A stretch of 32,665 nt of DNA, from IMG/VR virus record IMGVR_UViG_3300009537_000092, positions 1-32,665 of that record; one strand, written 5' to 3'. The stretch comes from a virus. The notes beneath the pieces were generated by a model. It worked only from the letters and a program-made list of their open reading frames with translations, made no database searches and had not been told where the DNA came from. This document shows, in pieces, positions 1 to 12,448 of the stretch (positions are counted from its first letter, which is position 1; each line of letters begins with the position of its first letter). Made by a program: the position numbers and the translations under genes.

Positions 1-119
1 GTTTGCCAACCTGGTGCTGCCTCTTGCTCCGGGAGCTACCTTTACCTTTATCTTACTAAAGAATATTCTGGCAATTTGCCAATGAGGGGCGCAAAACGTA
101 TTAGATTATAGGAGATAAA
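1..119. other. Left edge, no assignable gene
   Basis: The first ~55 bases are clearly richer in GC than the rest of the window. Forward frame 1 is open from the edge to a TAG at 109-111 and could be the last 36 codons of a gene that starts outside, ending in the peptide LPMRGAKRIRL, but I do not recognise it. A minus-strand frame is also open to the edge. The only clear signal is the AGGAG Shine-Dalgarno at 110-114, which belongs to the endolysin gene at 120. Confidence 0.4.
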
Positions 120-587
120 ATGCCGATAAATTATAAGCAATTTAAAGATTTAATTATTATACCGTCTCTGGAACATCTTGGATTATATTCGGAATCTTCG
201 GTTAATTTATTATCAGGAATTGTAGCTCAAGAATCACATGTGGCGACATATATCAAACAAATTAATGGGCCTGCAATCGGGCCATATCAAATGGAAAAAC
301 CTACCTACTCCACAAATATGGAATATCTTATTTATCGCAATGATGACTTAACCGACAAGGTGATAAACTTAACTTTAAAAGAAATACCTCATTTTGAAAG
401 CATGGCGGGTAATTTTTATTTTGCTACGGCAATGGCAAGAGTGCATTTTTTAAGATTTGAAGAACCGTTGCCACCCGCTTATGATATTCGAGCTTTAGCA
501 ATATATTGGAAAAAATATTATAATACTGAAGCAGGAAAAGGGACGGTTGAGGAATTTATTAAAAATTATGAATGTTATATAAAATAA
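120..587 (+). CDS. Lysozyme-like endolysin (transglycosylase-type)
   Basis: This 155-residue protein probably cleaves peptidoglycan at the end of infection. Residues 32-59 hold the family signature: SGIVAQES, with Glu38 as the candidate catalytic acid, followed by GPAIGPYQME. This matches the E-S...G-P-x-Q arrangement of lysozyme-fold phage proteins common in podoviruses. The middle (FATAMARVHFLR) and C-terminus (LAIYWKKYYNTEAGKGTVEEF) also fit that phage family. There is no signal peptide, so export would need a holin, and a holin-like gene follows 62 bases downstream. The start has AGGAG at an ideal distance. The fold assignment rests on recalled family motifs; the bond cleaved is inferred. 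Confidence 0.75.
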   Translation: MPINYKQFKDLIIIPSLEHLGLYSESSVNLLSGIVAQESHVATYIKQINGPAIGPYQMEKPTYSTNMEYLIYRNDDLTDKVINLTLKEIPHFESMAGNFYFATAMARVHFLRFEEPLPPAYDIRALAIYWKKYYNTEAGKGTVEEFIKNYECYIK

Positions 588-649
588 GGTTCTACGTGGA
601 ACATAAGTACATCATATTGATCTTATTTTAATGATATAAGGATAATAGT

Positions 650-1033
650 ATGTTTGAGGGTATCTTAACATTATCAAGTGTTTTAGTTCCTCCACTTTTT
701 GATTTTGTTAAAAAGAAATTTTTAAAGCCGAATCAAGATTCACCGGAGGCCACTTTATCAACGCTGGCCACTACAAAACCAGATATTATGCCAGCCTTTA
801 TTGAAGCTCAAGCAAAGCTATTAAAGGCTCAAACTGAATATTTTAATAGGGATGTTATAGGAACCCCTAGCTTGTGGGTAATTAACATGAGAGCGTCTAT
901 AAGACCTCTTTTTGTATGTGTTTCAGTTCCGGCACGCATATGCTCGTGGATATTCTCTTGGCACATTGACCCTCAGTTTTGTTATTTAATGGACGTTTGT
1001 ATTGGATCATGGTTTGGGAGTCGATTAATATAA
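650..1033 (+). CDS. Holin-like membrane protein (3TM-holin type)
   Basis: This 127-residue protein has a hydrophobic N-terminal segment (residues 4-20), a polar linker, the motif RASIRP at 81-86, a hydrophobic stretch at 87-103 and a final one at 110-124 ending in SWFGSRLI. The order 'RASxRP, membrane helix, membrane helix with W-F-G-x-R' is characteristic of the phage 3TM-holin family, which forms the inner-membrane lesion that releases endolysin. It lies between the endolysin gene and a coiled-coil membrane protein, so it completes a lysis cassette. ATAAGG lies upstream of the ATG. The three cysteines in the last 40 residues are more than usual for the family. A structural or immunity role is the alternative. 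Confidence 0.65.
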   Translation: MFEGILTLSSVLVPPLFDFVKKKFLKPNQDSPEATLSTLATTKPDIMPAFIEAQAKLLKAQTEYFNRDVIGTPSLWVINMRASIRPLFVCVSVPARICSWIFSWHIDPQFCYLMDVCIGSWFGSRLI

Positions 1034-1043
1034 AGGTAAAAAT

Positions 1044-1445
1044 ATGCAAATACCAACGGAATATGCAAAGCTTATGGGCGAATTTCAAACAAGCATTGAA
1101 AGATTTATGGATGATATAAAGGACATTAAGGTCATTTTGAAAGATATTCTAGATAAGCTCGACGAACATAGTAAATTAATCACTCAGCTTGAGTATAAAC
1201 AAGAGGAATATGAAAAGATGAGACGATTAACAGAAGAAGAAAAGAAAAAACGCAAAGAACGAGAAAAGGAACAACAAAAACGAAAACAGGGTTTTTGGGA
1301 TAATATCATGAATAGAATTTTGGGAGCTATTTTAGTAGCACTGATATTATCAAGTGCAAGCTACTTTTGGGGCATGTATCATGAATATCTAAAATACCAA
1401 GAACCACCTAATCATACTCAGAAAATAGGTATTAAAAAGGTTTGA
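1044..1445 (+). CDS. Coiled-coil protein with one membrane helix, lysis-associated
   Basis: The 133-residue product is strongly charged and heptad-rich from about residue 8 to 85, including a Lys/Glu block at 61-82. A single hydrophobic helix follows at about 90-110 and then a short polar tail. I do not recognise a named family. The architecture resembles XhlA/hemolysin-type accessory holins and some spanin-like proteins. Its start is 10 bases after the holin stop, preceded by AAAGG, so the two are probably translated together. It is the last gene before the convergent csrA operon. A lysis accessory role is inferred from position and topology only. Confidence 0.55.
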   Translation: MQIPTEYAKLMGEFQTSIERFMDDIKDIKVILKDILDKLDEHSKLITQLEYKQEEYEKMRRLTEEEKKKRKEREKEQQKRKQGFWDNIMNRILGAILVALILSSASYFWGMYHEYLKYQEPPNHTQKIGIKKV

Positions 1446-1465
1446 AATAAGTTTAATTTGAACCT
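1438..1465. terminator. Candidate bidirectional terminator between convergent operons
   Basis: AGGTT (1438-1442) pairs with AACCT (1461-1465), and AAAT (1445-1448) pairs with ATTT (1456-1459) around a 7-base loop; ATTTTAG follows on the plus strand. An alternative 9-bp stem, AAAATAGGT (1422-1430) with ACCTATTTT (1462-1470), covers the same ground. It lies exactly between the last lysis gene (+) and the last gene of the csrA operon (-). The U-run is weak, so function is tentative. Confidence 0.4.
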
Positions 1466-1468
1466 ATT

Positions 1469-1906
1469 TTAGTCGTCAAGACCAAGCCTTAATAATTTAA
1501 AATTATCGCAGTCTTGGTTTTGGCAATAAAAAACTTCTTTTTTGAAGTTATATGCTAACCTTTCTTCACATAAATAACATATTAGTTCATCGATTATTTC
1601 TTTTTCACTCCTATTTTCGTTCCTATCATCAACTAGGCAATCGTTTTTAAGGTCGAATTCTTTCGGGTTGTTATCGCAAGACGTACAACCATCATCACCA
1701 TGGAATAAAGAATAGTCAAATACCCAAAATTTATCTAAAAACAGATAGGGTTTAGATAAATATTTTATTTCTTTACTTCCAGTTGCCCACCCTATATCCA
1801 AAGCAAATAAAAACTTTTGAAGTTCTTTAGATTGTTGTTCATCTTTGATTCTAAACTTTAATGGAACTTTATCTTTAACCAATTGTTTAAGTTTTTTTGA
1901 GTACAT
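1469..1906 (-). CDS. Unknown protein with C-terminal zinc ribbon
   Basis: This is a 145-residue protein of unrecognised family, the last gene of the csrA operon. Its C-terminal 35 residues carry CYLC and, about 17 residues later, CQNQDC followed by DNFKLL, a plausible four-cysteine zinc ribbon. The spacing and the trailing D-C-x-N-(F/Y)-x-L-L resemble the small zinc-ribbon protein encoded at 4417, so the two domains may be paralogous. A second cysteine pair (CTSC) lies in the middle. AAGGAG precedes the start. It is 12 bases downstream of the SSB-like gene. A nucleic-acid role is possible but not shown. Confidence 0.6.
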   Translation of the reverse strand: MYSKKLKQLVKDKVPLKFRIKDEQQSKELQKFLFALDIGWATGSKEIKYLSKPYLFLDKFWVFDYSLFHGDDGCTSCDNNPKEFDLKNDCLVDDRNENRSEKEIIDELICYLCEERLAYNFKKEVFYCQNQDCDNFKLLRLGLDD

Positions 1907-1918
1907 GTTATTTTCTCC

Positions 1919-2317
1919 TTAGAAATCAATATCATCATCTTTAAATTCATCTTCTGCCTTTTCATCAGATTTTTTGAAATCTAAGATAATTGGTCGTTCA
2001 CCATATTTCATATTATTTTCAACTTCAATAAAACAAGGGGCCTTTGAACCAATTAAACTTTCAGTGTTTATTTGGCCTTCTTCTAGTTGATTAAATTTAT
2101 TAATGGCTTTGAAATAATGTTTTGTTTTAAAAAACATTGGGCCCTCTAACATTAACCAGGTTCGGCATTTAATCTTAATTCCTTCTTGGGCTATTTGTCC
2201 ATCAAGCTCTAACATTTGATTACCGGATTGCGATTTTTTGGAAATGGCTTTTTCAGTAATAAAGATAGCACTTCCATCTTGAATTTGAATTGGCATTTTA
2301 AAAGGTATGATAGTCAT
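1919..2317 (-). CDS. DUF669-type, SSB-like single-strand DNA-binding protein (probable)
   Basis: The start is placed at 2317 because AGGAG lies 8 bases upstream; a longer in-frame start at 2389 would run deep into the ATPase gene and lacks a site. The 132-residue product is beta-rich, with the YGERP motif near residue 108 and an acidic tail ending DDDIDF. I place it with DUF669-like phage proteins, which commonly sit next to RecA-like AAA ATPases. The tail closely resembles the DDDIPF tip by which bacterial SSB recruits partners. Together with the adjacent Sak4-like gene this supports a single-strand DNA-binding role in phage recombination. That role is inference; family and context are consistent. 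Confidence 0.6.
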   Translation of the reverse strand: MTIIPFKMPIQIQDGSAIFITEKAISKKSQSGNQMLELDGQIAQEGIKIKCRTWLMLEGPMFFKTKHYFKAINKFNQLEEGQINTESLIGSKAPCFIEVENNMKYGERPIILDFKKSDEKAEDEFKDDDIDF

Positions 2318-2327
2318 TTTGGAGCTC

Positions 2328-3017
2328 CTATTGTTGAATATCTTCATTAAAATAATCGTTAATTGTATCAGAAACAAACTGTAAATCATTTGGTATTTTT
2401 ATATCTTTAAACATATCTATGGGTGATTTTGAATTAAATTTATCCACGGATTTTGTTATAAAGTAATGATTACCGTCCTCTACTATAGAATTTAAAACAA
2501 TTGTAAACATGCCTTCAATTGTAATTTTCTCATCTAGCATTTTACCGATGGTTTTACACTTTGTCTTCCCATACATATCAACGTCAGAATGCGTGAGAAA
2601 ATAAATAATCAGATCAGATCGACAGACGCTCGCTTCATTAATAATCGACCATGAGTTTTTAGCGATTTCGGTAAACTTATCATATCCTCGTTCAATTGCC
2701 CTGCGCATAAATTCATTTGCCATGACATATTGAAAATCATCGATAATAATTTGTTTTACTTCTTTTCGCTCGCTTTCAATTTTTTTTATACAGCTAATGA
2801 TTTTCTCTGATTTATCTGTTGAGTATAGATTACAGATGCTTTTTTTGTTATCTTCTTTTTGGGTAACGACGGGCTCCTTATAAGAATGCCTCCAGCCTTT
2901 AAATGGCAGTGGCTTCCCAAGAACGTTAATAATAAATGTTTCTTTTGGGTTTAAGGTTCTAATAGCTGTAGATTTTCCTGAGCCACTTTCACCAATAATT
3001 AAAACGGGAGTACTCAT
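2328..3017 (-). CDS. Sak4-like RecA-fold recombination ATPase (AAA_24)
   Basis: This 229-residue ATPase has a Walker A GESGSGKST at residues 9-17 and a Walker B IIIDD at 90-94. YFLTHSD at 139-145 sits in a sensor position, and KTIGKMLDEKITIEGMF at 155-171 matches the conserved block of phage Sak4/AAA_24 proteins. Members of this family promote single-strand annealing and recombination together with an SSB, and an SSB-like gene lies immediately downstream. The start at 3017 is chosen over the ATG at 3023 because AGGAG is 8 bases from the former and only 2 from the latter. It is translationally close to the 25-residue gene upstream, whose TGA overlaps the 3023 ATG. Confidence 0.8.
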   Translation of the reverse strand: MSTPVLIIGESGSGKSTAIRTLNPKETFIINVLGKPLPFKGWRHSYKEPVVTQKEDNKKSICNLYSTDKSEKIISCIKKIESERKEVKQIIIDDFQYVMANEFMRRAIERGYDKFTEIAKNSWSIINEASVCRSDLIIYFLTHSDVDMYGKTKCKTIGKMLDEKITIEGMFTIVLNSIVEDGNHYFITKSVDKFNSKSPIDMFKDIKIPNDLQFVSDTINDYFNEDIQQ

Positions 3018-3019
3018 CC

Positions 3020-3097
3020 TCATTTCTCCTGTTGTTGACGATGATTATCATCATCATTTTCTTGTGATAAAAAATCTTCCATATCAGAATGAAACAT
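3020..3097 (-). CDS. 25-residue acidic peptide in the csrA operon
   Basis: A very short reading frame, MFHSDMEDFLSQENDDD followed by a Gln/Arg-rich end, starts 9 bases after a good AGGAG. It begins just after the stop of the 72-residue gene upstream, and its TGA overlaps the start region of the Sak4-like gene. Spacing and Shine-Dalgarno quality argue that it is translated, either as a functional peptide or as a coupling frame for the ATPase. No family is recognisable. Confidence 0.5.
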   Translation of the reverse strand: MFHSDMEDFLSQENDDDNHRQQQEK

Positions 3098-3098
3098 A

Positions 3099-3317
3099 TT
3101 AATAACTCCTTGATTCATTAATACGTCTGTTCATGTCACAATCATAATTTATTTCATTTTCTGTGCGTGAACGATTTTTCTTGAACGCGCGTTCTTGTGC
3201 ACGGTCAAGCTTGTGAAGAAATTTTATTTCTTCTTTTATTTCTTCATCGGTAAGACTAGACATCTTATTATCCATGTATATTTTCGTTTCATTATCAATA
3301 ATTTTAAATAGATCCAT
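3099..3317 (-). CDS. Small charged helical protein downstream of csrA
   Basis: The 72-residue product is highly charged and probably helical, with [21 protein letters not shown] in its centre and an Arg/Asn-rich C-terminus. The start is put at 3317, where AAGGAG lies 7 bases upstream; the ATG at 3323 is too close to the same site. The gene overlaps the end of csrA by 14 bases, so the two are translationally coupled. I do not recognise it. A partner or modulator of CsrA is a possibility based on coupling only. Confidence 0.6.
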
Positions 3318-3498
3318 GTTCATTCTCCTTTTTTAATTCAGCTTGAATGCGTTCATATATTTCAAGTCTATGAACGGCAATTTCTTTTGGGGCTTTAATT
3401 CCTGTTCTTATTTGGCCACATTGATATCCTAAGATGGTTACTTCTATATTGTCACCAATTTTAATAGTTTCACCAACCCGTCTAGATAATATCAGCAT
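3304..3498 (-). CDS. csrA: CsrA/RsmA-family RNA-binding translational regulator
   Basis: The 64-residue protein matches CsrA over its full length: [16 protein letters not shown] at the N-terminus, [16 protein letters not shown] in the middle, and IYERIQAE at the start of the C-terminal helix. The residues known to contact RNA are intact: Leu4 and Arg6 on strand 1 and Arg44 in the V-H-R motif on strand 5. CsrA homodimers bind GGA motifs in mRNA leaders and usually block ribosome access. The gene is first in a six-gene minus-strand operon with a ~100-nt leader whose own Shine-Dalgarno contains GGA, so autoregulation is possible. CsrA genes are usually chromosomal; mobile copies are known, for example on Legionella integrative elements. 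It may rewire host mRNAs or act on the GGA-rich phage leaders described below. Confidence 0.95.
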
Positions 3499-3517
3499 AA
3501 AATACTCCTTATTTTAT

Positions 3518-3601
3518 GAAGCGACGGGACGGACTCATAGATTTTAAAAATGTTAATTAAGAATGTTCACAAGTTGAACTCTCTTTATATCCCATCGCTT
3601 C
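3518..3601 (-). promoter_or_regulatory. Structured 5' leader of csrA
   Basis: In the minus-strand transcript the predicted first bases (3601-3590) pair with 3529-3518 in a continuous 12-bp stem with one G-U pair, starting GAAGCGA. The same position on the plus strand is a C-A mismatch, so the pairing holds only in the minus-strand RNA. Inside it, 3565-3569 and 3575-3579 form a 5-bp hairpin (GTTCA/TGAAC). The stem closes just before the AAGGAG of csrA at 3510-3505. It could stabilise the 5' end, present CsrA sites or gate translation. Confidence 0.55.
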
Positions 3602-3607
3602 GAAACC

Positions 3608-3660
3608 AGTATAGGCGTTAGAATTAAAGCTGTCAACATTTTTATATAAAAAAGTTGACA
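3608..3660 (-). promoter_or_regulatory. csrA operon promoter and 30-bp inverted-repeat operator
   Basis: On the minus strand TTGACA (3636-3631), a 17-bp spacer and TATACT (3613-3608) form a near-consensus sigma70-type promoter, predicting a start near 3601. The -35 box is the left arm of a 30-bp inverted repeat (3631-3660) with the form TGTCAAC-N16-GTTGACA. The right arm abuts the 3' end of the Cro-like gene. The same element, nearly base for base, recurs at 11020-11049, and a diverged version lies at 3927-3956, which suggests a common regulator. Confidence 0.75.
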
Positions 3661-3661
3661 T

Positions 3662-3910
3662 TTATTCGGGATAATTCATATGGGGTCGTAAGTCTTTCAT
3701 TTTTAGTTTTATTTTATTCTTTTTGCAAAAATTAATTAAGCGAATAGCGTTTGCATCAGAGATAGTTTTTGTGCCAGTTTCATCGTTTAAATAGGTATAT
3801 AAAGTTGAATGTGGAATATTAGCATCTTTACCTAATTGAAAAATACTAATTTTAAGTTTATAACAAATTTGTTTTAATAATTTTTTTGGGTTATCTTGAA
3901 TGTTTCTCAT
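3662..3910 (-). CDS. Cro/CI-like helix-turn-helix regulator
   Basis: The 82-residue protein has an HTH-like segment at residues 23-41 (IFQLGKDANIPHSTLYTYL) and ends with KDLRPHM, a C-terminal signature seen in many small Cro-like repressors. It is too short to hold a CI dimerisation or cleavage domain. Its promoter lies in a 37-bp region shared with the divergent nuclease gene and is built from TTGACA/TGTCAA half-sites. It is therefore the best candidate for binding the three operators in this window, including its own. SD AGGAG lies upstream of the ATG. Confidence 0.7.
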   Translation of the reverse strand: MRNIQDNPKKLLKQICYKLKISIFQLGKDANIPHSTLYTYLNDETGTKTISDANAIRLINFCKKNKIKLKMKDLRPHMNYPE

Positions 3911-3926
3911 GATTATAGCTCCTTAT

Positions 3927-3985
3927 TGTCATAAATATTATATAAAAATGTTGACATTGTCAATAATGTCATTTAATTTAATGTC
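3927..3985. promoter_or_regulatory. Overlapping divergent promoters and operator between regulator and nuclease
   Basis: Minus strand: TTGACA (3963-3958), 17 bp, TAATAT (3940-3935) drives the Cro-like gene. Plus strand: TTGACA (3951-3956), 17 bp, TAATTT (3974-3979) predicts a start at about 3986, the A of the nuclease ATG. The two -35 boxes form a palindrome, TTGACATTGTCAA (3951-3963). A diverged copy of the 30-bp element spans 3927-3956, and two more TGTCA half-sites occur at 3967 and 3982. One bound repressor could shut both promoters. Confidence 0.7.
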
Positions 3986-4408
3986 ATGAAACCCATTAAA
4001 CTTAACACAAAGCCTAAACGAAAGCATGAAGAGCAAGACTTGCAGATTTCCGTGGCTCAGTTGTTAGATAGCATTACTATGTTTAGAAACAAATGGTGCC
4101 ATGTTCCGAATGGAGGCGCAAGAGATGCAAAAGAAGGGGCTAGACTTAAGAAAATGGGGGTTAAGAAAGGTGTTCATGATAATCTTATTTTTAAAAATAT
4201 TAAATGGTTAGATACATGTCAATCTTTTTTCGAGCGAAAGTTTTATACAGGTTTAGCGATTGAAATAAAAGTTGGAAAAGGGAAACTAACAAAAGAACAA
4301 TTAGACTGGAAAAAAAGCCTTGAAGAAGAAGGATGGCTTTGCATTCCATGCAAAACAATTGACGAAGTCATGGCATTAATTACGAAATATTACGGGATTA
4401 AATTTTGA
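3986..4408 (+). CDS. VRR-NUC domain nuclease, probably leaderless
   Basis: The 140-residue protein is a stand-alone VRR-NUC domain of the PD-(D/E)XK superfamily. HVPNGG is at residues 39-44, GVHDN at 62-66 (Asp65 as metal ligand), EIK at 93-95 (Glu93, Lys95) and the family glutamine in KEQLDW at 104-109. Phage VRR-NUC proteins are thought to cut branched or recombining DNA. The usual G-V-P-D-L is G-V-H-D-N here, a small deviation next to the ligand. No Shine-Dalgarno lies upstream, and the predicted transcript starts on the ATG, implying leaderless translation. It heads the long plus-strand accessory operon. Confidence 0.85.
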   Translation: MKPIKLNTKPKRKHEEQDLQISVAQLLDSITMFRNKWCHVPNGGARDAKEGARLKKMGVKKGVHDNLIFKNIKWLDTCQSFFERKFYTGLAIEIKVGKGKLTKEQLDWKKSLEEEGWLCIPCKTIDEVMALITKYYGIKF

Positions 4409-4416
4409 GGTGAGTG

Positions 4417-4593
4417 ATGGATGAGGCAAAACGCACATGTAATCAGTGTGGTAGAGAGATGGAATATTCTACTGAGATAGAATGTAAATTAGTTTGCGTC
4501 TGTCATTATCCAGACTGTCCTAATTATGCTCTATTACAAATATCTATGGAAAACATGTCTAAAGGGATTAATGAAGAGGTGAGTGATGGATGA
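4417..4593 (+). CDS. Small zinc-ribbon protein
   Basis: This 58-residue protein starts Met-Asp-Glu within the 19-bp start repeat, 8 bases after the nuclease stop. It carries CNQC at residues 8-11, CVCHYPDC at 27-34 and NYALLQ after that. This looks like a two-knuckle zinc ribbon with one or two spare cysteines. The same C-x(n)-D-C-x-N-(Y/F)-x-L-L ending is seen in the C-terminal domain of the protein at 1469-1906. Its last five codons (EVSDG) lie inside the start repeat of the next gene, with which it overlaps by 8 bases. Function unknown. Confidence 0.65.
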   Translation: MDEAKRTCNQCGREMEYSTEIECKLVCVCHYPDCPNYALLQISMENMSKGINEEVSDG

Positions 4594-4759
4594 GAAATGT
4601 AAGAGTAAGATAGAAGAAAAATATCCGACGGAATTATTGAAAATTACCCCGGATTATGAAATCTATTACAGAAAAAAGTTTTTTAGAAAAGATAAAGAAT
4701 TGGCATTAATGTTGTTAGATGTTGGAAATGCATTAATACGTGATAAAGATAATATGTAA
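4586..4759 (+). CDS. Small hypothetical protein (MDE start)
   Basis: The 57-residue, Lys/Glu-rich product overlaps the zinc-ribbon gene by 8 bases and starts inside the second copy of the 19-bp start repeat. The sequence has a polar N-terminus (MDEKCKSKIEEKY), an aromatic centre (YEIYYRKKFF) and a probable helix at 37-50. No family is recognised. Shine-Dalgarno GAGGTGAG, the overlap and the repeat support translation. Confidence 0.6.
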   Translation: MDEKCKSKIEEKYPTELLKITPDYEIYYRKKFFRKDKELALMLLDVGNALIRDKDNM

Positions 4760-4802
4760 AATAATTGATGAGAATCTTTATTGCCGATAAATGAGGTGAG
4801 GA

Positions 4803-5165
4803 ATGGATGAGAAAACAAAAAGACGAGCAAAATTTGTGTATAATGCAGCGAGGCTTGCCGCAGAAGCAGCCTCTGCTCCGATTATTCCTCTTATTTTTGA
4901 AGAAAGAGAAGAATCTTTTATAGATCAATTTTTAAAAGTCATTGAACGACAATGCGGTGATCAGCGCTCAAAGTCCCCAGAAGAATTGCATGGAAGTTGG
5001 ATGCAAGCATATTTCGCAATGGGATGGGTGTACGGTGAAAAGTATGATCGAGAGAAAAAAACACACCCAGATCTTGTGCCTTATTCGGATCTTGAGCAAC
5101 TTGAACAGGATAAAGATGCTGTGTTTATTGCTTTGTGTGAGATTGCACGTCAATGGATTTATTAA
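4803..5165 (+). CDS. RyR-domain protein
   Basis: Residues 58-115 match the RyR domain, first defined as a repeat in ryanodine receptors and also found in bacterial and phage proteins. The segment includes SPEELHGSW, GWVYGEKYD and THPDLVPYSDL. The first ~45 residues are a helical, Ala-rich N-terminus. Its ligand in phages is unknown. The gene is flanked by 14-base direct repeats differing at one position (4784-4797 and 5177-5190, CCGATAAATGA(G/T)GT), consistent with a mobile cassette. It starts with the third copy of the Met-Asp-Glu start repeat. Confidence 0.8.
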   Translation: MDEKTKRRAKFVYNAARLAAEAASAPIIPLIFEEREESFIDQFLKVIERQCGDQRSKSPEELHGSWMQAYFAMGWVYGEKYDREKKTHPDLVPYSDLEQLEQDKDAVFIALCEIARQWIY

Positions 5166-5212
5166 TTTAATTAATACCGATAAATGATGTTACCGGAGAT
5201 AGGAGTAGGAAT

Positions 5213-5425
5213 ATGTTTAAATGGTTATTTAAGATTTTTAAGAAAAAAAGACCGCTCCTTACATTAAAAAAAGACGCCATTTGGTTTGACGCAAGTGATC
5301 GTCCAACAATGTCATTTCATATAAATGGAAATGTTAGAGAATGGAGGTCAAAAAATGGAGGGCCTCCATTCCGTCAATGGCACGTCTCAGATGCGCCTAA
5401 ACTTGGAAGTGAGATGAAAGAATGA
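5213..5425 (+). CDS. Small hypothetical protein
   Basis: The 70-residue product begins with a basic amphipathic stretch, MFKWLFKIFKKKRP, that could lie on a membrane surface. A Trp- and Gly-rich region follows (WRSKNGGPPFRQWHVSD). It is not recognised. A TTACCGGAGATAGGAG leader precedes it, and it overlaps the next gene by ATGA (5422-5425), so the pair is coupled. The downstream partner is a membrane protein, which fits a membrane location. Confidence 0.55.
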   Translation: MFKWLFKIFKKKRPLLTLKKDAIWFDASDRPTMSFHINGNVREWRSKNGGPPFRQWHVSDAPKLGSEMKE

Positions 5426-5643
5426 AAACTATAGCAATGTTTTTTTTAGGGTATCTTCTAATGTCAATTATATCTTTTGTCATAGCGGATATTATTTTTA
5501 TTGATGAATATAAAAAATATAATTTAAATAAAATTGATTATATGAATTTTCTTTGTGGGGCTGCTTTTTTATGGCCATTATTTTTTTTAGGAATGATTCG
5601 CACTACAATTAAATATCTTTGTATAAAACTAAAAGACAATTAA
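5422..5643 (+). CDS. Small two-helix membrane protein
   Basis: The 73-residue product has hydrophobic helices at about residues 3-23 and 43-64, separated by a charged segment with IDEYKKYNLNK. It starts within the stop of the preceding gene (ATGA), so it is translated by coupling rather than from its own site. No family is recognisable. Small membrane proteins in early accessory regions often alter host envelope or superinfection, but there is no direct evidence here. Confidence 0.55.
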   Translation: MKTIAMFFLGYLLMSIISFVIADIIFIDEYKKYNLNKIDYMNFLCGAAFLWPLFFLGMIRTTIKYLCIKLKDN

Positions 5644-5672
5644 AATGACGTTACCGGAGATAGGAAAGGGAT

Positions 5673-6026
5673 ATGAGTTTGGATTTTGATTTAACTGAAA
5701 AATATATAAAAATTAAACTTTCAGATTTAACATGCGAAGAATATATAGAAACAGTTTATTCAAGAAATATAACTCATAATGTAAATATAATGTGGAAAGA
5801 ATCTGGCTGTTATGAGGCCCTTTATGAAAGTGATGGTAAAAAAGCTGTTGAGATAATACCTATACTAAAAGATGCTATTGAAAAAATGGGTAGTGATCCA
5901 GAAAAATATAAAAAAATGAATGCTCCAAATGGGTGGGGAACCTATGAGAGTGCTTTTAATTTTTTAACAAATGTTTTTAAGGCGTGCTTTGAAAACCCCA
6001 ACTCAATAATTAATATAGACAAATGA
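5673..6026 (+). CDS. Hypothetical protein
   Basis: The 117-residue product has a mixed alpha/beta composition. Its N-terminus is MSLDFDLTEKYIKIKLSDL and it has a Gly/Trp motif, NAPNGWGTYESAFNFL, near residue 86. The sequence from KAVEIIPILKDAIEKM to the Gly-Trp-Gly-Thr-Tyr motif resembles small phage and immunity-type proteins of unknown role, but I cannot name a family. A repeated leader precedes it, and its TGA lies inside the conserved stretch of the next leader. Confidence 0.55.
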   Translation: MSLDFDLTEKYIKIKLSDLTCEEYIETVYSRNITHNVNIMWKESGCYEALYESDGKKAVEIIPILKDAIEKMGSDPEKYKKMNAPNGWGTYESAFNFLTNVFKACFENPNSIINIDK

Positions 6027-6263
6027 CGTTACCGGAGAGACGGAGATAAAACAGTTTTAATAAGAGAAGGAGCAGATCGTAGCGGTAAGCGAGAACAGGA
6101 AAATTTGTGAAGAATTGACCATCAATCAATACATCATGAATGAGTAGAATGTTAAACGGAGTGGCGGGAGACCTGATAAATCAATGTGTCCACACCGAAT
6201 CTTATTAATAAGTTGATTGAATTAAAAGAATACGAATAACTTTACCGGAGATAGGAGAGAGAT
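6027..6263 (+). other. Gene-poor stretch between two leader repeats
   Basis: This 237-base stretch starts with a variant leader (TTACCGGAGAGACGGAG) and ends with a perfect one. It holds no convincing gene. A 22-codon frame at 6140-6208 has no Shine-Dalgarno. A short frame ending ...LKEYE at ~6187-6237 looks like the tail of a lost gene, because its stop sits at the same place in the repeat as the tail of the 45-residue gene downstream. The purine-rich 5' half could be an untranslated RNA. A decayed cassette is the simplest reading. Confidence 0.4.
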
Positions 6264-6401
6264 ATGTTTGATTGGTTTGATATGCACGATAGCTGTGAAA
6301 AAAGACTTGAAGAAATTGAAGAATCGCTTAATGAATTGGAGGAGCGTTATAGTAAAGCAATTGAAGAATCAACTAAAAAAATTAATGACGAAGACGAATA
6401 A
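6264..6401 (+). CDS. 45-residue acidic coiled-coil peptide
   Basis: The product, starting MFDWFDMHD, is a single charged helix with Leu/Ile at heptad positions (RLEEIEESLNELEERY) and an acidic end, NDEDE. A perfect leader repeat supplies AGGAG 7 bases before the ATG. Its last codons and stop belong to the next repeat. The sequence looks like a small coiled-coil oligomer or an inhibitor, but no family is recognisable. Confidence 0.55.
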   Translation: MFDWFDMHDSCEKRLEEIEESLNELEERYSKAIEESTKKINDEDE

Positions 6402-6418
6402 CTTTACCGGAGATAGAA

Positions 6419-6574
6419 ATGAAATTTATTATTAGTATTTGGATATGTGTTTCTTTTGCGTTCATGATGATGTGGGGAATGGGCGGATGGGTTGATTGGG
6501 GTCTTTTCCCGGGCGGCATTTTATTCGGATTTGGAATAGGAGTATTAATTAGTTGGATGGCTAATGAGTTTTAA
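6419..6574 (+). CDS. 51-residue membrane peptide
   Basis: This very hydrophobic peptide has two predicted membrane helices, at about residues 3-21 and 32-48. They are joined by a Gly/Trp turn (GMGGWVDWGLFPGG). The leader here is truncated (ACCGGAGATAG directly before AAATG), so the first GGAG is the likely ribosome site. I do not recognise a family. It could be a holin-like or superinfection-exclusion peptide, by topology only. Confidence 0.5.
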   Translation: MKFIISIWICVSFAFMMMWGMGGWVDWGLFPGGILFGFGIGVLISWMANEF

Positions 6575-6606
6575 TCAAATGATATTACCGGAGATAGGAG
6601 ATAAAT

Positions 6607-6780
6607 ATGACAAGACCAGATTACCCAAATTGTGTAATGACACCTTTAATAATTAGCAGAATTGGTCGCGATCAAGAATTCTACGATGAAGATCCAGACA
6701 GATGGGAGCGCAGACAAGAGGAAGTAGAAGAATTGCGAGCTAGAGAAGAACAAGAAATGAAAGAAGAACAGGAATTTTAG
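6607..6780 (+). CDS. 57-residue charged peptide
   Basis: The N-terminal third is neutral (MTRPDYPNCVMTPLIISRIG). The remainder, from residue 21, is a run of Glu/Arg/Gln that forms one long charged helix. It is preceded by a full leader repeat with AGGAG 7 bases before ATG. The 80 bases after its stop contain no gene, only a remnant CTGACGAAGACAAATAA that matches the ends of other cassettes. No family is recognised. Confidence 0.55.
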   Translation: MTRPDYPNCVMTPLIISRIGRDQEFYDEDPDRWERRQEEVEELRAREEQEMKEEQEF

Positions 6781-6860
6781 ATGATAACGGTTTAGGTTTC
6801 TAGACAACTAATTGTTTATCTGACGAAGACAAATAATTTTACCGGAGATAGGAGATAAAT

Positions 6861-7190
6861 ATGTTTAATCAATTAAAAAGAGCAAATAAGAATGATCAGC
6901 TTCAAGAACAGCAGCGTAGATATGATGATCTGGTGGATAGAGTCATATTATTAAGTGATCGATATTTTCATGAGCACGGTCGAAAACCAACTGATGTCTA
7001 TTTACGCTTAGACGATCTTAAGTTTGTCAGAAACTTTCATGAGATAAGGCGAGTCATTCATGGGCTGTCATCATCTCAGCTGAATAAGCTTGCTGGACTC
7101 GAACTTAATGTAGGTGAGCAAATGGTAGTCGAATCTAAAGAAACCAATAAATATAATTGGCGTATTTTTATGAGACGAAGTAGTTTTTAA
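6861..7190 (+). CDS. Hypothetical protein, charged and helical
   Basis: The 109-residue product starts with a strongly charged helix (QLKRANKNDQLQEQQRRYDDLVDRV). A compact region follows (FHEHGRKPTDVYLRLDDLKFV) and the end is MRRSSF. It is not recognised. It carries the last perfect leader of the array. The mixture of a charged helix and a structured C-terminus suggests an oligomeric or nucleic-acid-associated protein, but this is weak. Confidence 0.55.
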   Translation: MFNQLKRANKNDQLQEQQRRYDDLVDRVILLSDRYFHEHGRKPTDVYLRLDDLKFVRNFHEIRRVIHGLSSSQLNKLAGLELNVGEQMVVESKETNKYNWRIFMRRSSF

Positions 7191-7215
7191 GAAGTTATCT
7201 TATAGGGAATTAAAG

Positions 7216-7587
7216 ATGGAAGAAGACGATTTCGAATATCCTCTTAATCATTATGATAAAGAAGAGGAGCAATGGCTTGGAAAAGATCTATTTGATTTAG
7301 AAGACATCGCTGATTGTCCTGAGGAATTACAAAATGATATTAGGCCTATTCGAACTTATAAAGAAAACACACAATACAAGCAGGTGTATGAGCTTTTCTT
7401 AAAGAAAGACACATTAACCTTAGATGAAATCCAGGTAGGGCTATGGCGAAAATTTAAGCTTTATTTAAAACGACCTGTCATTGTAGGCTCAATCCAAATT
7501 CTAAAGCGAGACAAAGGATTAATTAGAGGCATAAGAAATGGCGTTTATCGTAGAAATGGTGCAAAGATGGGGAAATTTAGATCATGA
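7216..7587 (+). CDS. Hypothetical protein with possible winged-helix domain
   Basis: The 123-residue product has an acidic first third. Residues 55-115 could fold as a winged helix: QVYELFLKKDTLTLDEIQVGLWRKF, then KRPVIVGSIQILKRDKGLIRGIRNGVYRR. The pattern 'helix, LTLDEI, helix, SIQILKRDKGLI, G-x-Y-R' resembles DNA-binding domains of small phage regulators. It has no leader repeat, and its TGA overlaps the next gene's ATG (7584-7587). Function is inferred weakly. Confidence 0.5.
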   Translation: MEEDDFEYPLNHYDKEEEQWLGKDLFDLEDIADCPEELQNDIRPIRTYKENTQYKQVYELFLKKDTLTLDEIQVGLWRKFKLYLKRPVIVGSIQILKRDKGLIRGIRNGVYRRNGAKMGKFRS

Positions 7588-7898
7588 AAAATAAGATAAA
7601 GATAAAATGTCAATCAATTCCTTCAATTGTTATGCCGGCTATTTTGGTATCAATTTTTGTTTTAGGGATGTTTTTAATATGTTTGTTTGTGGTATTGACG
7701 CGAAATACATCTGAACTATTCAAGATTTTTATATCAACCTCTTGGGCACTTACATTCTTACTTCAATACAAGTCATGGAAGATTGTCATTGAAATGATTA
7801 AGTCTGAGCTATCGTTTAGAAAATATGCAACTAAACAACTTAGCGAGTTCACAGAAGAAATTCAAAAAATTATTGACATGTTGAAAAGCATAGAATAA
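7584..7898 (+). CDS. Two-helix membrane protein with cytoplasmic coiled tail
   Basis: The 104-residue product has a basic N-terminus (MKNKIKIKCQ), membrane helices at about residues 12-38 and 47-62, and a charged helical C-terminus (KQLSEFTEEIQKIIDMLKSIE). It is translationally coupled to the gene before it by ATGA. A strong terminator begins 59 bases after its stop, so it closes the rightward accessory operon. No family is recognised. Confidence 0.55.
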   Translation: MKNKIKIKCQSIPSIVMPAILVSIFVLGMFLICLFVVLTRNTSELFKIFISTSWALTFLLQYKSWKIVIEMIKSELSFRKYATKQLSEFTEEIQKIIDMLKSIE

Positions 7899-7956
7899 TA
7901 TTTGTTTGTTGAGTATGCTTACTACTCATTTTTCATTTTTCTTGTTTGTTTGTTAG

Positions 7957-7985
7957 AAAGGCCGATAGAAATATTGGCCTTTTTT
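7957..7985 (+). terminator. Strong intrinsic terminator
   Basis: AAAGGCCGATA (7957-7967) pairs with TATTGGCCTTT (7972-7982) in an 11-bp stem with one G-U pair and a GAAA tetraloop. It runs straight into TTTTTT. It ends the plus-strand accessory operon just before the convergent regulator/membrane-peptide pair. This is a textbook rho-independent terminator. Confidence 0.9.
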
Positions 7986-7993
7986 AATGAAGG

Positions 7994-8113
7994 TTAATCC
8001 CTAAAAACTGCTAAACAAAACATGAAAAATAACATCCAAAAAATACTATTTACCTTACTTGAAATTGATTGAAGTGCTTTAACTATTTGAATTGTATCAT
8101 TAGGGGCGATCAT
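7994..8113 (-). CDS. 39-residue membrane peptide coupled to the RHH regulator
   Basis: The peptide starts MIAPNDTIQIVKALQSIS and ends with one membrane helix, IFWMLFFMFCLAVF, then RD. Its ATG overlaps the regulator's TGA (ATGA), so it depends on translation of that gene. A single-helix hydrophobic peptide beside a ribbon-helix-helix DNA-binding protein recalls a toxin-antitoxin layout, but it could equally be a small membrane effector. It is not recognised. Confidence 0.5.
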   Translation of the reverse strand: MIAPNDTIQIVKALQSISSKVNSIFWMLFFMFCLAVFRD

Positions 8114-8325
8114 TTTATTTCCTTAGTTTTTCTCAAATGTTCTATAATTATACGTCTTAAATATGTGCTAGTTGAAATAAAATTTTTACTGGCATTACAT
8201 TTAATTTCTTGTAGTATTTCGTTTGGCAAATAAACCTGTGCTCTTTTTAAATCATGATAGATAGAGTAAAGGTGATTTTTATTACCACTTAGATCATGTA
8301 ATTCTTTAGTTCTTGATTTTTTCAT
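8110..8325 (-). CDS. Ribbon-helix-helix transcriptional regulator, probably leaderless
   Basis: The 71-residue protein has the RHH pattern from residue 29: a beta strand (AQVYLPNEI), a first helix (LQEIKCNASKN), a turn (STST) and a second helix (YLRRIIIEHLRK). RHH dimers use the strand to bind direct or inverted repeats. Its promoter -10 ends 6 bases before the ATG, predicting a leaderless transcript, and two TGAGTC repeats 10 bp apart lie inside that promoter, which suggests autorepression. It is divergent from the replication-initiator-like gene, so it may act like CopG-type control of replication; that part is inference. Confidence 0.65.
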   Translation of the reverse strand: MKKSRTKELHDLSGNKNHLYSIYHDLKRAQVYLPNEILQEIKCNASKNFISTSTYLRRIIIEHLRKTKEIK

Positions 8326-8331
8326 GGGATA

Positions 8332-8360
8332 AGTATAGACTCATTATGACTCACCGTCAA
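8332..8360 (-). promoter_or_regulatory. Promoter of the RHH gene with direct-repeat operator
   Basis: On the minus strand TTGACG (8360-8355), a 17-bp spacer and TATACT (8337-8332) fit sigma70 well. The spacer contains TGAGTC twice, 10 bp apart (one helical turn), reading TGAGTCATAATGAGTC. The transcript would start on or next to the A of the ATG at 8325. Confidence 0.7.
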
Positions 8361-8380
8361 GTCTTCAATAAGGAAGTTTA

Positions 8381-9088
8381 ATGAAGAATAGCTTTATATT
8401 ATATCATGATATTGTTCATATATTCGATAAACTGACAAATGAACAATCTGGCATTTTGATCAAAGCAATTCTAGATTATGAGGTTAGGGGAAAAATTCCA
8501 ACTTTAGACTTTGCTCTGGATTTAGCCATCACTCCAATCCTTCAATCATTGGACAGAAACAAGGCAAAACATGCTGAAGTTAGCAGAAGGCGCGCCCTTG
8601 CGGGCTCTCGTGGGGGGAAGCAAAAGGTAGCAAATCTAGCAAATGCTAGCAATTGCTACGAGAGTGATAGTGATAGTGATAGTGATAGTGATAGTGAATT
8701 AAAGAAAGATTTTTCTAAAGAAAAATCTTATGTCGAGCAAAAGCTCGACGGCGCCCAGCCTGTTAAAAAAAAGAACCCCAATAAAGAGATCAAAAAACAA
8801 GCATTAGAAGTTTTGGATTTTTTAAACAAAGTGACAGGACGAAACTTCCGGCCAGTGGATGCAAATTTAAAATTAATCGAAGCCAGATTGAGAAGTGGCG
8901 TTAAAGTCCACCAATGTCGAGCGATTATTGGCATTCAATACAATGAATGGAAAGATAGCGAAAAGATGTTTCAGTATTTACGACCTGCCACATTGTTTAA
9001 TAAAACCAAGTTTGAGCAATATTTCGCAAAATTGAACCCTAATTACGTACCACCGGAGGAGGAAAATGAAGATGAAAAAGACGTGTGA
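8381..9088 (+). CDS. Replication-initiator-like protein (DUF6291 N-terminus, Phg_2220_C C-terminus)
   Basis: The 235-residue protein has two domains. Residues 1-60 (SFILYHDIVHIFDKLTNEQ...AILDYEVRG) resemble the DUF6291 type. Residues 140-218 (LDFLNKVTGRNFRPV, ARLRSGVKV, YLRPATLFNKTKFEQYF) match the conserved phage C-terminal domain found in lambda-O-like and DnaD-like replication proteins. The linker, residues 83-115, is low in complexity and includes five Ser-Asp pairs. That linker DNA carries iteron-like repeats and two hairpins, as expected for an origin inside the initiator gene. AAGGAAG lies before the ATG. No helicase loader or helicase is in the window. The domain calls are recalled families; the initiator role is inferred. 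Confidence 0.7.
   Translation: MKNSFILYHDIVHIFDKLTNEQSGILIKAILDYEVRGKIPTLDFALDLAITPILQSLDRNKAKHAEVSRRRALAGSRGGKQKVANLANASNCYESDSDSDSDSDSELKKDFSKEKSYVEQKLDGAQPVKKKNPNKEIKKQALEVLDFLNKVTGRNFRPVDANLKLIEARLRSGVKVHQCRAIIGIQYNEWKDSEKMFQYLRPATLFNKTKFEQYFAKLNPNYVPPEEENEDEKDV
8628..8749 (+). other. Candidate replication origin inside the initiator gene
   Basis: Three near-identical 9-10 bp direct repeats, TAGCAAATC, TAGCAAATGC and TAGCAATTGC, fill 8628-8656. Five tandem AGTGAT hexamers plus a partial sixth follow at 8663-8697. A 10-bp perfect hairpin with a TAAA loop (8706-8729) comes next, then a 7-bp perfect hairpin, GTCGAGC/GCTCGAC with an AAAA loop (8732-8749). Position between the two initiator domains matches lambda ori in gene O. 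The hexamer array could also vary in copy number without breaking the frame. Confidence 0.5.
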
Positions 9089-9422
9089 CAAATGTTTTGG
9101 TGCTTATAATTCATTGGGGCAATGTAGTTGTACGCTTCCACCTGAAAGAAACGAAGTATTTCAGCAAATTTATAAATGTGAATTATGTGGCGAACAAAAA
9201 AATATTGTCTGTGTTGGTAGAATTTCGACCAATGGTCAAAAATATATCACTTGGTTATGCGAAGATCATTATTTTAATCGACTCAAAAATATGGGAAGAC
9301 TTAGAAAAGATTTGTGTTGGTTAGATGCTGACCCAGCGAAGGTGCCAAATCCTGACGTAGTGATGAGTTTAGTAAAAAACAGGGGAATTAATGACCTCGT
9401 AAAATCGTTGCTCTGGGGATAG
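9066..9422 (+). CDS. Cysteine-rich zinc-binding protein
   Basis: The 118-residue product has CDKC and CSC in the first 22 residues and CELC at about 38-41. WLCEDHYFNRL follows near 69-79. Together these could form one or two zinc sites. The 3' half is helical and basic. It overlaps the initiator gene by 23 bases, and its site GGAGGAGG is inside that gene (Pro-Pro-Glu-Glu-Glu codons), so the two are coupled. A second ATG at 9072 is possible. It may assist replication or be a Nin-type recombination factor; I cannot choose. Confidence 0.6.
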   Translation: MKMKKTCDKCFGAYNSLGQCSCTLPPERNEVFQQIYKCELCGEQKNIVCVGRISTNGQKYITWLCEDHYFNRLKNMGRLRKDLCWLDADPAKVPNPDVVMSLVKNRGINDLVKSLLWG

Positions 9423-9500
9423 ATTTAGTGTGTTATTTACGGTTCGTATTATCGGAGATAAGTGATGAATATTTAACCAGGTTATCTTTTAAGATTATAA

Positions 9501-9524
9501 ATTTTTTACATAGATATAAAAAAT
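9501..9524. terminator. AT-rich hairpin between convergent genes, possible weak terminator
   Basis: ATTTTTTA (9501-9508) pairs with TAAAAAAT (9517-9524) around an 8-base loop. It lies between the zinc protein gene (+) and the end of the minus-strand operon at 9536. The stem has no G-C pairs, so it is weak. A TTATCGGAGATAAG leader copy with no gene after it lies just upstream (9449-9462), and a palindrome, TAACCAGGTTA, is at 9474-9484. Confidence 0.3.
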
Positions 9525-9535
9525 CCACGGAAGTT

Positions 9536-9664
9536 TCATTCGTCATCTTCTTCATCTATTTGTGATTTTGCAAGCTCTACAAATTTCGCAAAAGTTTTGT
9601 TTAGTTTATTTAGTTCATAACAAATATCTCTTAAAATATCATTTGTTAGATCATCTTTATTCAT
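9536..9664 (-). CDS. 42-residue acidic peptide
   Basis: The peptide begins MNKDDLTNDILRDICYELNK and ends with the acidic stretch QIDEEDDE. It is probably one long amphipathic helix. AAGGA lies 9 bases before the ATG, and the frame is the last gene of the minus-strand operon that starts at 10937. It is too short for a family call. Translation is supported by the site and by spacing to the gene upstream. Confidence 0.5.
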   Translation of the reverse strand: MNKDDLTNDILRDICYELNKLNKTFAKFVELAKSQIDEEDDE

Positions 9665-9675
9665 TTTGATTTTCC

Positions 9676-9927
9676 TTATATAAAAAAAATGTCATTAAAT
9701 TTGTTAGTAATGTAAAATTTATTTTTACTAATATCATATTTCAATTTCATTTCATCTTGAACAAAGCCGCCAGGAACAATATAGCTTGTAAAGTTTTTTT
9801 TAAGATGACGGACTTTGTGATTTAATAAGTTAAGTGGCGCATGTTTCAATTCATCGTAATTTATTTCTATGTTATTTATTTCTTTAATGCTCCGTGATAA
9901 AGCATTCTCAGTAGATTTAATTGGCAT
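9676..9927 (-). CDS. Hypothetical protein
   Basis: The 83-residue product has a polar N-terminal helix (MPIKSTENALSRSIKEINN). A more compact C-terminal part holds VPGGFVQDEMKLKYDIS and ends in KFNDIFFI. It is not recognised. AAGGAT precedes the start. It sits 9 bases after the next gene upstream, so it is part of the same minus-strand operon. Confidence 0.5.
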   Translation of the reverse strand: MPIKSTENALSRSIKEINNIEINYDELKHAPLNLLNHKVRHLKKNFTSYIVPGGFVQDEMKLKYDISKNKFYITNKFNDIFFI

Positions 9928-9936
9928 AAATAATCC

Positions 9937-10227
9937 TTAGTGTACATTTTCGTCTAAGTTTTTATTATATTTAATATCCATAATGTCGAGCATTTCTATA
10001 AGAGTATTTTCAACGGAGTTTAAATGATCCATAGCACTTTTTTTTGTAACGTATGTAGCTACTCCCCATATTAATATACAAGCGTCATTTTTATTATAGT
10101 TTTCTAAAATAAATCTAATCATTTCGTCGTAGGTTTCTGTTTTTTTATCAATATTATCTATTATTTTCTGCGCTTCTACTGTATCAAATGAAGCGTTAAA
10201 TGTTTTTTGGTAATCAGTTTTTTTCAT
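9937..10227 (-). CDS. Hypothetical protein
   Basis: The 96-residue product is mostly helical: a charged first half (DTVEAQKIIDNIDKKTETYDEMIRFILENY), a short hydrophobic stretch (ACILIWGVATYVT) and a second charged helix (LNSVENTLIEMLDIMD). It is not recognised. The ribosome site is weak (GGAAT). It belongs to the minus-strand operon at 9536-10937, in which all products are small and helical. Confidence 0.5.
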   Translation of the reverse strand: MKKTDYQKTFNASFDTVEAQKIIDNIDKKTETYDEMIRFILENYNKNDACILIWGVATYVTKKSAMDHLNSVENTLIEMLDIMDIKYNKNLDENVH

Positions 10228-10242
10228 GTTTATTCCTTCAGT

Positions 10243-10566
10243 TTATTTTACATATATTTTAATAAGTTTTTTATCAATCAATTCTTTAATCCACGTTTCA
10301 ACTAATTCAGAATCTTCTTCTATATTTTTTATAAAAAAATACATATTTACCCTCTCTTTTGCAGTCATGATTAAAAGGAGATTAGTACCTAATTTCGAAT
10401 CTTCATCATCACATCTCATACTCACAGCATAACCCATTAAAAAAAGTAGCAACGCGGCAGCATAAGGAGATAAAGTATCTAATAATGAATCAAGATCTTC
10501 GCTAGATTTAGTTTTTGAAACGGCTTTTTTTGAAAATATGAACGACTTTAATTCCCGTAGTTTCAT
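10243..10566 (-). CDS. Hypothetical protein with one membrane-like segment
   Basis: The start is placed at 10566, where ATGA overlaps the previous stop; the longer frame from 10590 would run back into that gene. The 107-residue product has a basic N-terminus (MKLRELKSFIFSKKAVSK) and a hydrophobic stretch at about residues 35-50 (LSPYAAALLLFLMGYAV). A charged C-terminus ends DKKLIKIYVK. It is not recognised. Translational coupling to the upstream gene is clear. Confidence 0.55.
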   Translation of the reverse strand: MKLRELKSFIFSKKAVSKTKSSEDLDSLLDTLSPYAAALLLFLMGYAVSMRCDDEDSKLGTNLLLIMTAKERVNMYFFIKNIEEDSELVETWIKELIDKKLIKIYVK

Positions 10567-10760
10567 TTTATACCCCACTTTTCTTGCCAATATATTCGAG
10601 TTATTGGTAAATTTTTAATGTAATTGCGTGAATCTTCGAGTTTAGCATATGCCTCCTCTCGTGATAATCCCATATTAATAAAATCACGAAACATCTTTGC
10701 TAATGTTTGCATATGTAAGTAAAAGATTCGTTCAAGCTCCTTATATGTTTTAGTTTCCAT
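10563..10760 (-). CDS. Hypothetical helical protein
   Basis: The 65-residue product (METKTYKELERIFYLHMQT...) is a helix-rich protein with REEAYAKLEDSRNYIKNL near its C-terminus. The ATG at 10760 is preferred over 10766 because AGGAG lies 8 bases from the first and 2 from the second. It is 12 bases from the upstream gene and overlaps the downstream one by ATGA. No family is recognised. Confidence 0.55.
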   Translation of the reverse strand: METKTYKELERIFYLHMQTLAKMFRDFINMGLSREEAYAKLEDSRNYIKNLPITRIYWQEKWGIK

Positions 10761-10772
10761 TTTCATTTCTCC

Positions 10773-10937
10773 TTATGACTTTTCTTGATTACGTTTAGCT
10801 ATCTGACGTTGTAATTTTTGCCAAACTCCTAAGTCGCTGCTAGGATCGGCATAGTGTAAATAATGGTCAAATAACGCAGGGCCATATTTTGTGATATCTC
10901 TCTCTAACTTCGATTGTCTTTTAGTGTTTCTGTTCAT
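10773..10937 (-). CDS. 54-residue protein, first gene of the leftward operon
   Basis: The product, starting MNRNTKRQSKLERDITKYGP, is basic and ends QKLQRQIAKRNQEKS. The centre holds an aromatic patch (FDHYLHYADPSSDLGVW). AGGAG lies 8 bases before the ATG. It is the first gene after the divergent promoter at 10998-11025 and therefore the leading gene of the five following minus-strand genes. The family is unknown. Confidence 0.55.
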   Translation of the reverse strand: MNRNTKRQSKLERDITKYGPALFDHYLHYADPSSDLGVWQKLQRQIAKRNQEKS

Positions 10938-10997
10938 GATTAAATCTCCTTATTTTAATTAGCTCCTAAGCTCTTGTTTTTTGTTATTCTTAAGTTA

Positions 10998-11071
10998 ACT
11001 ATAGCACTCTTTTATGGGTTGTCAACAATTTAATATAAAAAAGTTGACATACATATATAAATAGATAATAT
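10998..11071. promoter_or_regulatory. Back-to-back promoters on a 30-bp operator (copy 3)
   Basis: The inverted repeat TGTCAAC-N16-GTTGACA occupies 11020-11049 and is nearly identical to the copy at 3631-3660. The left arm is the -35 of a minus-strand promoter (TTGACA, 16 bp, TATAGT at 11003-10998) for the 9536-10937 operon. The right arm is the -35 of a plus-strand promoter (TTGACA 11044-11049, 16 bp, TAATAT 11066-11071) for 11098-11590. A bound repressor would cover both -35 boxes. Confidence 0.75.
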
Positions 11072-11097
11072 AGAGTGTATGAGTGGGGTGGGGACAA

Positions 11098-11271
11098 ATG
11101 AAAAAGTATGAGTATTTTGTGAGCTATACTACACACACAGGCGCAGGCAATGTTTCTATAACATCGTCTGATAAAAAAATCTCAATGAAACTAATTCAAG
11201 AAATTCAGAGACTGATAGAAAATAAATTTAATTATAAAAAAGTCATTATTAATAATATTATAAAATTATAA
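11098..11271 (+). CDS. 57-residue hypothetical protein
   Basis: The start is set at the ATG at 11098, after a G-rich site (GGGGTGGGGA); a GTG at 11083 is the alternative. The product opens MKKYEYFVSYTTHTGAGNVS and contains ISMKLIQEIQRLIENKF. The pattern 'strand, TGxGN, strand, helix' resembles small phage proteins that start with K-x-Y-x-V-x-Y and contain 'GxGN', but I know no function for them. It is the first gene rightward of the shared operator. Confidence 0.55.
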   Translation: MKKYEYFVSYTTHTGAGNVSITSSDKKISMKLIQEIQRLIENKFNYKKVIINNIIKL

Positions 11272-11284
11272 AGGAAAATATTAA

Positions 11285-11590: not shown

Positions 11591-11702
11591 AAAAAAAGAA
11601 AAAGAAGAAAAAAGAAGAAGCCGGCACTCTAATACCATCCAAAAACCTTGTCAATAGGAGCAAACGCAAAATAATTCGCTTTTTTGCAAATTAGTCTAAC
11701 AT

Positions 11703-11731
11703 TTGTTCAAATCCCTACCCTTTGGTATCAT
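11703..11731 (+). promoter_or_regulatory. Candidate late promoter upstream of the virion genes
   Basis: TTGTTC (11703-11708), a 17-bp spacer and TATCAT (11726-11731) match sigma70 partly: a weak -35 and a good -10. It stands in the 284-base gap before the small terminase gene, where a promoter for the long virion operon would be expected. It is weaker than the other promoters of this window, consistent with activation late in infection, but this is a guess. Confidence 0.4.
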
Positions 11732-11777
11732 ATTAACTACATATCGATCTCTTCTTATACGCAAGATATGAAAGCCT

Positions 11778-11812: not shown

Positions 11813-11874
11813 TATACTTTTAAATCAAATAAGAATAAACTATCAAAAATAGATGTTTAAAAAAGATACAACAT

Positions 11875-12441: not shown

Positions 12442-12448
12442 GGTTGTT

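Follow-up and report, generated by a model that had tools for sequence, protein, structure and literature searches.

Small lambda-repressor-like helix-turn-helix (HTH) proteins regulate phages 434 (Cro and CI) and P22 (c2), where palindromic operators lie over early promoters, the regulator's own included. The locus described here has both features, its HTH protein being predicted. The 434 operator has the form ACAA-N6-TTGT, and operators of the 434/P22 type cluster as OR/OL triplets. The site of the mycobacteriophage L5 repressor contains TGTCAAG and overlaps a -35 box. This repressor, a monomer of 183 residues, binds asymmetric 13-mers at more than twenty places in the genome, some of them in promoters (PMC9283540). 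Our locus differs in having three symmetric sites of 30 bp, and no description of a phage operator TGTCAAC was found in a literature search. Another precedent is provided by the restriction–modification controller proteins C.Esp1396I and C.AhdI, which belong to the same fold class as our HTH model and whose operator consists of two adjacent palindromes. According to the title of structure entry 3clc, such an HTH protein of about 80 aa occupies a 35-bp site as a tetramer. In contrast to the controller-protein systems, the inner halves of our sites are AT-tracts with no clear half-site, and no restriction–modification genes were noted.

The DNA analysed (hereafter the window) is 32,665 bases long, has a GC content of 0.35 and corresponds to the whole of the IMG/VR record IMGVR_UViG_3300009537_000092. 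Judging from a head–tail connector match (PF12236), the phage looks like a small podovirus. Neither a large terminase (TerL) nor a terminal repeat was detected in the window, so the record is probably incomplete. Three 30-bp palindromes in it are real and functional-looking; they are of a known kind, that of a phage repressor–operator circuit, with an odd spacing. It is probable, on sequence grounds, that they are the operators of a single phage repressor, most likely an 82-aa HTH protein.

A preliminary description had placed TGTCAAC-N16-GTTGACA, with almost identical AT-rich centres, at two positions and a diverged copy at a third, and all of this was recovered. Site 1 (3631..3660, TGTCAACATTTTTATATAAAAAAGTTGACA) and site 2 (11020..11049, TGTCAACAATTTAATATAAAAAAGTTGACA) match exactly, and site 3 (3927..3956, TGTCATAAATATTATATAAAAATGTTGACA), in the intergenic region between the HTH gene and a nuclease-like gene, has two mismatches. 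Compared pair by pair, the sites share 14, 13 and 13 of their 16 inner bases (permutation p ~1e-4). These bases are also partly self-complementary (18/24, p ~0.008), and the spacing between TGTCAA and TTGACA is N18 at all three sites.

Chance resemblance is a scarcely credible explanation for this family. With up to three mismatches allowed, the pattern only mildly exceeds expectation (four matches against 1.2), and 3 of 100 shuffles scored equally high, so that this count is weak evidence alone. TGTCAAC/16 is the only palindrome with 7-base arms found twice in the window with the same arm and spacer, and in Markov simulations a repeated family with at least three G/C in the arm arose in only 1 of 200. 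The genome scan proposed in the preliminary description, carried out over the 32.7-kb record, returned three places only. Their profile scores are 42.5, 39.8 and 36.0, against 11.6 for the next-best place in the window; 50 simulations gave no score above 19.2. As the profile was trained on the same three sites, its informative part is the score gap and the lack of further copies. Chance is opposed by the exact repetition, this gap, the promoter placement and the synteny with relatives, and the repeat statistics exclude it in practice.

The gap between the HTH and nuclease-like genes is also rich in half-sites: there are five TGTCAW half-sites in 70 bp (3927-3988), whereas 100 simulated genomes never had more than three anywhere. 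Those beside site 3 lie on the plus strand at 3958, 3967 and 3982 (within 3957..3988). The sequence TAATGTCAT is present twice, 16 bp apart, within 3964-3988, directly before the nuclease start. No ribosome-binding site is visible for the nuclease ATG (3986), and the gene may be nearly leaderless, as far as its sequence indicates.

The three sites overlap the best promoter candidates of the region. At site 1, the left arm provides the -35 box of the promoter TTGACA-17-TATACT (3608..3636, minus strand, 11/12 matches), directed towards the csrA-Sak4-SSB operon. The left arm of site 2 does the same for TTGACA-16-TATAGT, with an extended -10 (TG) (10998..11025, minus strand, 11/12), which serves the leftward 10937-9536 genes, and its right arm for TTGACA-16-TAATAT (11044..11071, plus strand, 10/12), which faces the rightward 11098 genes. 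The two leftward promoters are the two best sigma-70 matches within 1-13000. At site 3, a weak rightward promoter for the nuclease begins from the right arm. The earlier proposal that an arm of each site doubles as a -35 box can be refined: not all arms do so. No usable -10 (3/6) goes with the right arm at site 1, which would also read antisense to the HTH gene; at site 3 the left arm reads ATGACA and lacks a -10. The same proposal for the Cro-like (HTH) gene needs modification. Its promoter, TTGACA-17-TAATAT (3935..3963, minus strand, 10/12), has a -35 box (3963-3958) that lies beside the palindrome and adjoins it; the part that stands is that site 3 spans the spacer, the -10 and the start region.

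The first gene under site 1 encodes CsrA (64 aa; 3304..3498, minus strand; PF02599, E 1e-22), and the operon also includes a Sak4-like single-stranded DNA annealing protein (2328..3023, minus strand; phrog_2872, E 9e-78). The nuclease-like gene (VRR-NUC/resolvase-like; 3986..4408, plus strand; phrog_824, phrog_5702 and a weak PF08774 match) runs divergently from the HTH gene at site 3. Under site 2, the leftward operon opens with a gene (10773..10937, minus strand) whose homologue in the relative L006 lies in an operon downstream of an operator.

The csrA leader (3489-3602, minus strand) has a predicted fold of -31.1 kcal/mol, far better than shuffled sequences (z -4.4). It comprises a 13-bp long-range stem followed by a hairpin, AUAAAAUA-AGGAG-UAUUUUAU, which exposes the Shine–Dalgarno sequence AGGAG in its loop; this is the GGA-loop type that CsrA binds. 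The phage csrA may be self-regulated. The leader 3489-3602 has no Rfam match, and a clear hairpin of this type is absent at the three other phage csrA-like genes checked.

The overlap with promoters could also be read without any operator: each site would then be a pair of divergent promoters placed back to back, with one AT-rich UP-like element common to the two outward -35 boxes. In favour of this, the A-tract adjoining TTGACA looks like the proximal subsite of an UP element, and good promoters lead away from site 2 in both directions. Viral contigs commonly contain back-to-back TTGACA promoters, with a good -10 on both sides in about one-third of the matches listed. Among these matches (L104-L183), phage contigs often have promoter pairs in which each outward TTGACA box is followed by a TATAAT, the spacing ranging between 3 and 28 bp. 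A search for the AT-centred 30-bp pattern across the whole collection gave two other contigs only. One match, in L005, looks incidental and lies in an apparently coding stretch; the other, in L004, was rejected as an operator, being a clear back-to-back pair with TATAAT on either side. Promoter pairs elsewhere, however, have many spacings and no preference for 18 (among the matches listed), whereas the window sites are 3/3 at 18 with near-identical centres. Neither the right arm at site 1 nor the left arm at site 3 has a -10, and in the relatives L006 and L012 the palindromes, which have a conserved core of their own, in most cases accompany a promoter in one direction only. Site 2 could be accounted for by back-to-back promoters; site 1, the unvarying spacing and the one-sided sites of the relatives could not, and we regard this reading as quite improbable. 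That two arms unable to act as promoters still preserve the palindrome argues instead for operators.

A general promoter-linked N18 geometry was hinted at by Sak4 loci and was rejected: the cases in L013 and L014 look incidental beside other palindromes, and a wider promoter-pair search showed no N18 preference among the matches listed. These two Sak4 phages have different palindromes (L013 4130-4165, L014 6620-6670; TGCCAAGTGTTGGCA and GTATATG...CATATAC), lying either next to a small Cro-like gene or where the terminase and early regions meet.

The nearest relative of the window phage is L006, with identities of 72% for Sak4, 64% for the SSB-like protein and 46% for the nuclease. It has its own repeated palindrome of 18 bp, TGTCAAGAAAYnTTGACA (TGTCAA-N6-TTGACA). 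The copies at contig positions 1136 and 33325 are exact; that at 5618 has one mismatch and that at 5299 has two. The cores are TGTCAAGAAAC at 33325 and 5618 and TGTCAAGAAAT at 1136. Three of these four places correspond to window sites: 5618, which separates the HTH gene from the genes that follow, to site 1; 33325, flanked by the terminase small subunit gene and by an early gene divergent from it, to site 2; and 5299, between the HTH and nuclease-side genes, to site 3. The HTH orthologue is thus flanked by operators on both sides, and the copy at 1136 precedes the operon carrying the homologue of window 10773-10937. The right arms of the L006 palindromes are -35 boxes (one reads TTGACT), with -10 matches of 4-6 of 6. 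A direct repeat, CAAAGTTTCTTGAC/CAATGTTTCTTGAC, 18 bp apart, is present at 5621-5652, where a second, weaker putative operator copy seems to lie between the -35 and the -10. The 758-aa ORF at 8187-10463 of L006 holds a large terminase match that a long insert, possibly an intein, seems to interrupt.

A second relative, L012, encodes a different HTH protein (73 aa) and has TGTCAACAARTGTTGACA-like sites at two places matching the window layout: TGTCAACAAGTGTTGACA separates the HTH gene from the early genes, and TGACAACAAATGTTGACA lies at the terminase/early boundary, again with a -35 and a -10. Two further matches to the L012 pattern (contig positions 25200 and 25281) were discounted, as they fall within an ORF. 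By sequence comparison, the layout is common to the three phages and the operator sequence is genome-specific, in a synteny that was found by seeking such sites and covers two relatives only. The head–tail connector, SSB-like and 123-aa proteins, used as queries, yielded no additional close relatives. The exact repetition, the like centres, the absence of copies elsewhere, the overlap with the best promoters, the half-site cluster at the HTH promoter and the counterparts in relatives together favour operators. Sequence, placement and the syntenic operators of the relatives give good support to the proposal that one phage regulator acts through them on the early promoters listed in the preliminary description.

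The likely binder of the three sites, on sequence and structure predictions, is the Cro/CI-type HTH protein of 82 aa (3662..3910, minus strand). Its matches to Cro/C1-type HTH models are weak, the HTH_26 match (E 6e-4) falling slightly below the curated Pfam cut-off. The AlphaFold2 model (pLDDT 79) is a five-helix lambda-repressor-like domain whose best structural matches include SinR, P22 c2 and 434 Cro, at Z 7-8, a middling value common to many HTH proteins. Homologues were found in L006 only (35% identity) among viral contigs, phages and bacterial genomes; the sole bacterial match, in L091, covers just 26 residues. A PDB sequence search with the HTH alignment gave no match. The assignment is based on the position of the gene between sites 1 and 3, on the lambda-repressor-like model and on the operators flanking the L006 orthologue. 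The similarity of the arms cannot identify the binder: TTGACA serves as a -35 box in each of the three phages, and L012 has the TGTCAA/TTGACA arms with a different HTH protein. The 35% identity of the two HTH orthologues and the wide half-site spacing in the window also count against the assignment.

The sites may be operators of another protein: the RHH-like protein of 71 aa (8110..8325, minus strand; weak NikA-like and CopG-like matches), a host regulator or a regulator from the missing part of the genome. The half-sites of the RHH regulator NikR lie two turns apart (GTATGA-N16-TCATAC), which the arm-N16-arm geometry of our sites resembles; an RHH-like ORF exists in the window, and the incompleteness of the record leaves room for a binder encoded elsewhere. 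Nevertheless, two of the three sites flank the HTH gene. No homologue of the RHH-like protein was found in L006, a negative that weighs little here, and its own promoter has a different repeat. At 71 aa, the only RHH-like ORF noticed in the window has no room for the C-terminal metal-binding ACT domain that accompanies the RHH domain in NikR-like proteins. A binder other than the HTH protein is unlikely. The promoter of the RHH-like gene (8110-8360, minus strand) is TTGACG-17-TATACT, its -10 ending 7 nt 5' of the ATG. It contains the direct repeat TGAGTC-ATAA-TGAGTC, possibly, from its sequence, the gene's own operator.

With the HTH protein as the preferred binder, the spacing calls for comment. 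The distance of about one helical turn suited to one HTH dimer is found in L006 and L012 (N6), the L006 form TCAA-N6-TTGA having the spacing of the 434 operator. In the window the half-sites are 12 bp further apart than in 434 (N18), and a single HTH dimer is not easily reconciled with this. If only TCAAC/GTTGA were contacted, the half-sites would be 21 bp apart, i.e. two helical turns, on one face of the DNA, an arrangement that might fit two dimers or bending of the A-tract spacer. That orthologous repressors of 82-85 aa use N6 and N18 operators, a 12-bp shift amounting to a new binding mode within one lineage, is a tentative and rather doubtful proposition. If true, the window protein would recognise half-sites separated by some two helical turns, with a T-tract/TATA/A-tract spacer between them, either as two dimers or through bending of that spacer.

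We infer binding and repression by this protein, and a biological use in early shut-off or lysogeny. At sites 1 and 2 the repressor would cover the -35 box, and at site 3 the spacer, the -10 and the start region. Bound repressor would exclude RNA polymerase from the csrA-Sak4-SSB operon; at site 2 it would shut both the leftward 9536-10937 operon and the rightward 11098 genes; at site 3 it would silence its own gene, by autoregulation, together with the divergent nuclease gene. One regulator could thus switch the early genome, as had been suggested. Unlike the clustered OR/OL triplets, these operators are scattered over 7 kb, and in contrast to the 434/P22 switch no second repressor was noticed. 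No tyrosine integrase (PF00589) was found in the L006 record or in the window, whose record is probably incomplete, and early shut-off is therefore as possible as a lysis/lysogeny switch.

The sites provide a likely map of early control for a small podovirus-like phage that carries a csrA of its own and is otherwise undescribed. The three related phages keep the operator layout while the repressor and operator sequences change, and so form a matched set. Such a set would be useful for studying the evolution of immunity specificity, and of half-site spacing when an operator doubles as a -35 box.
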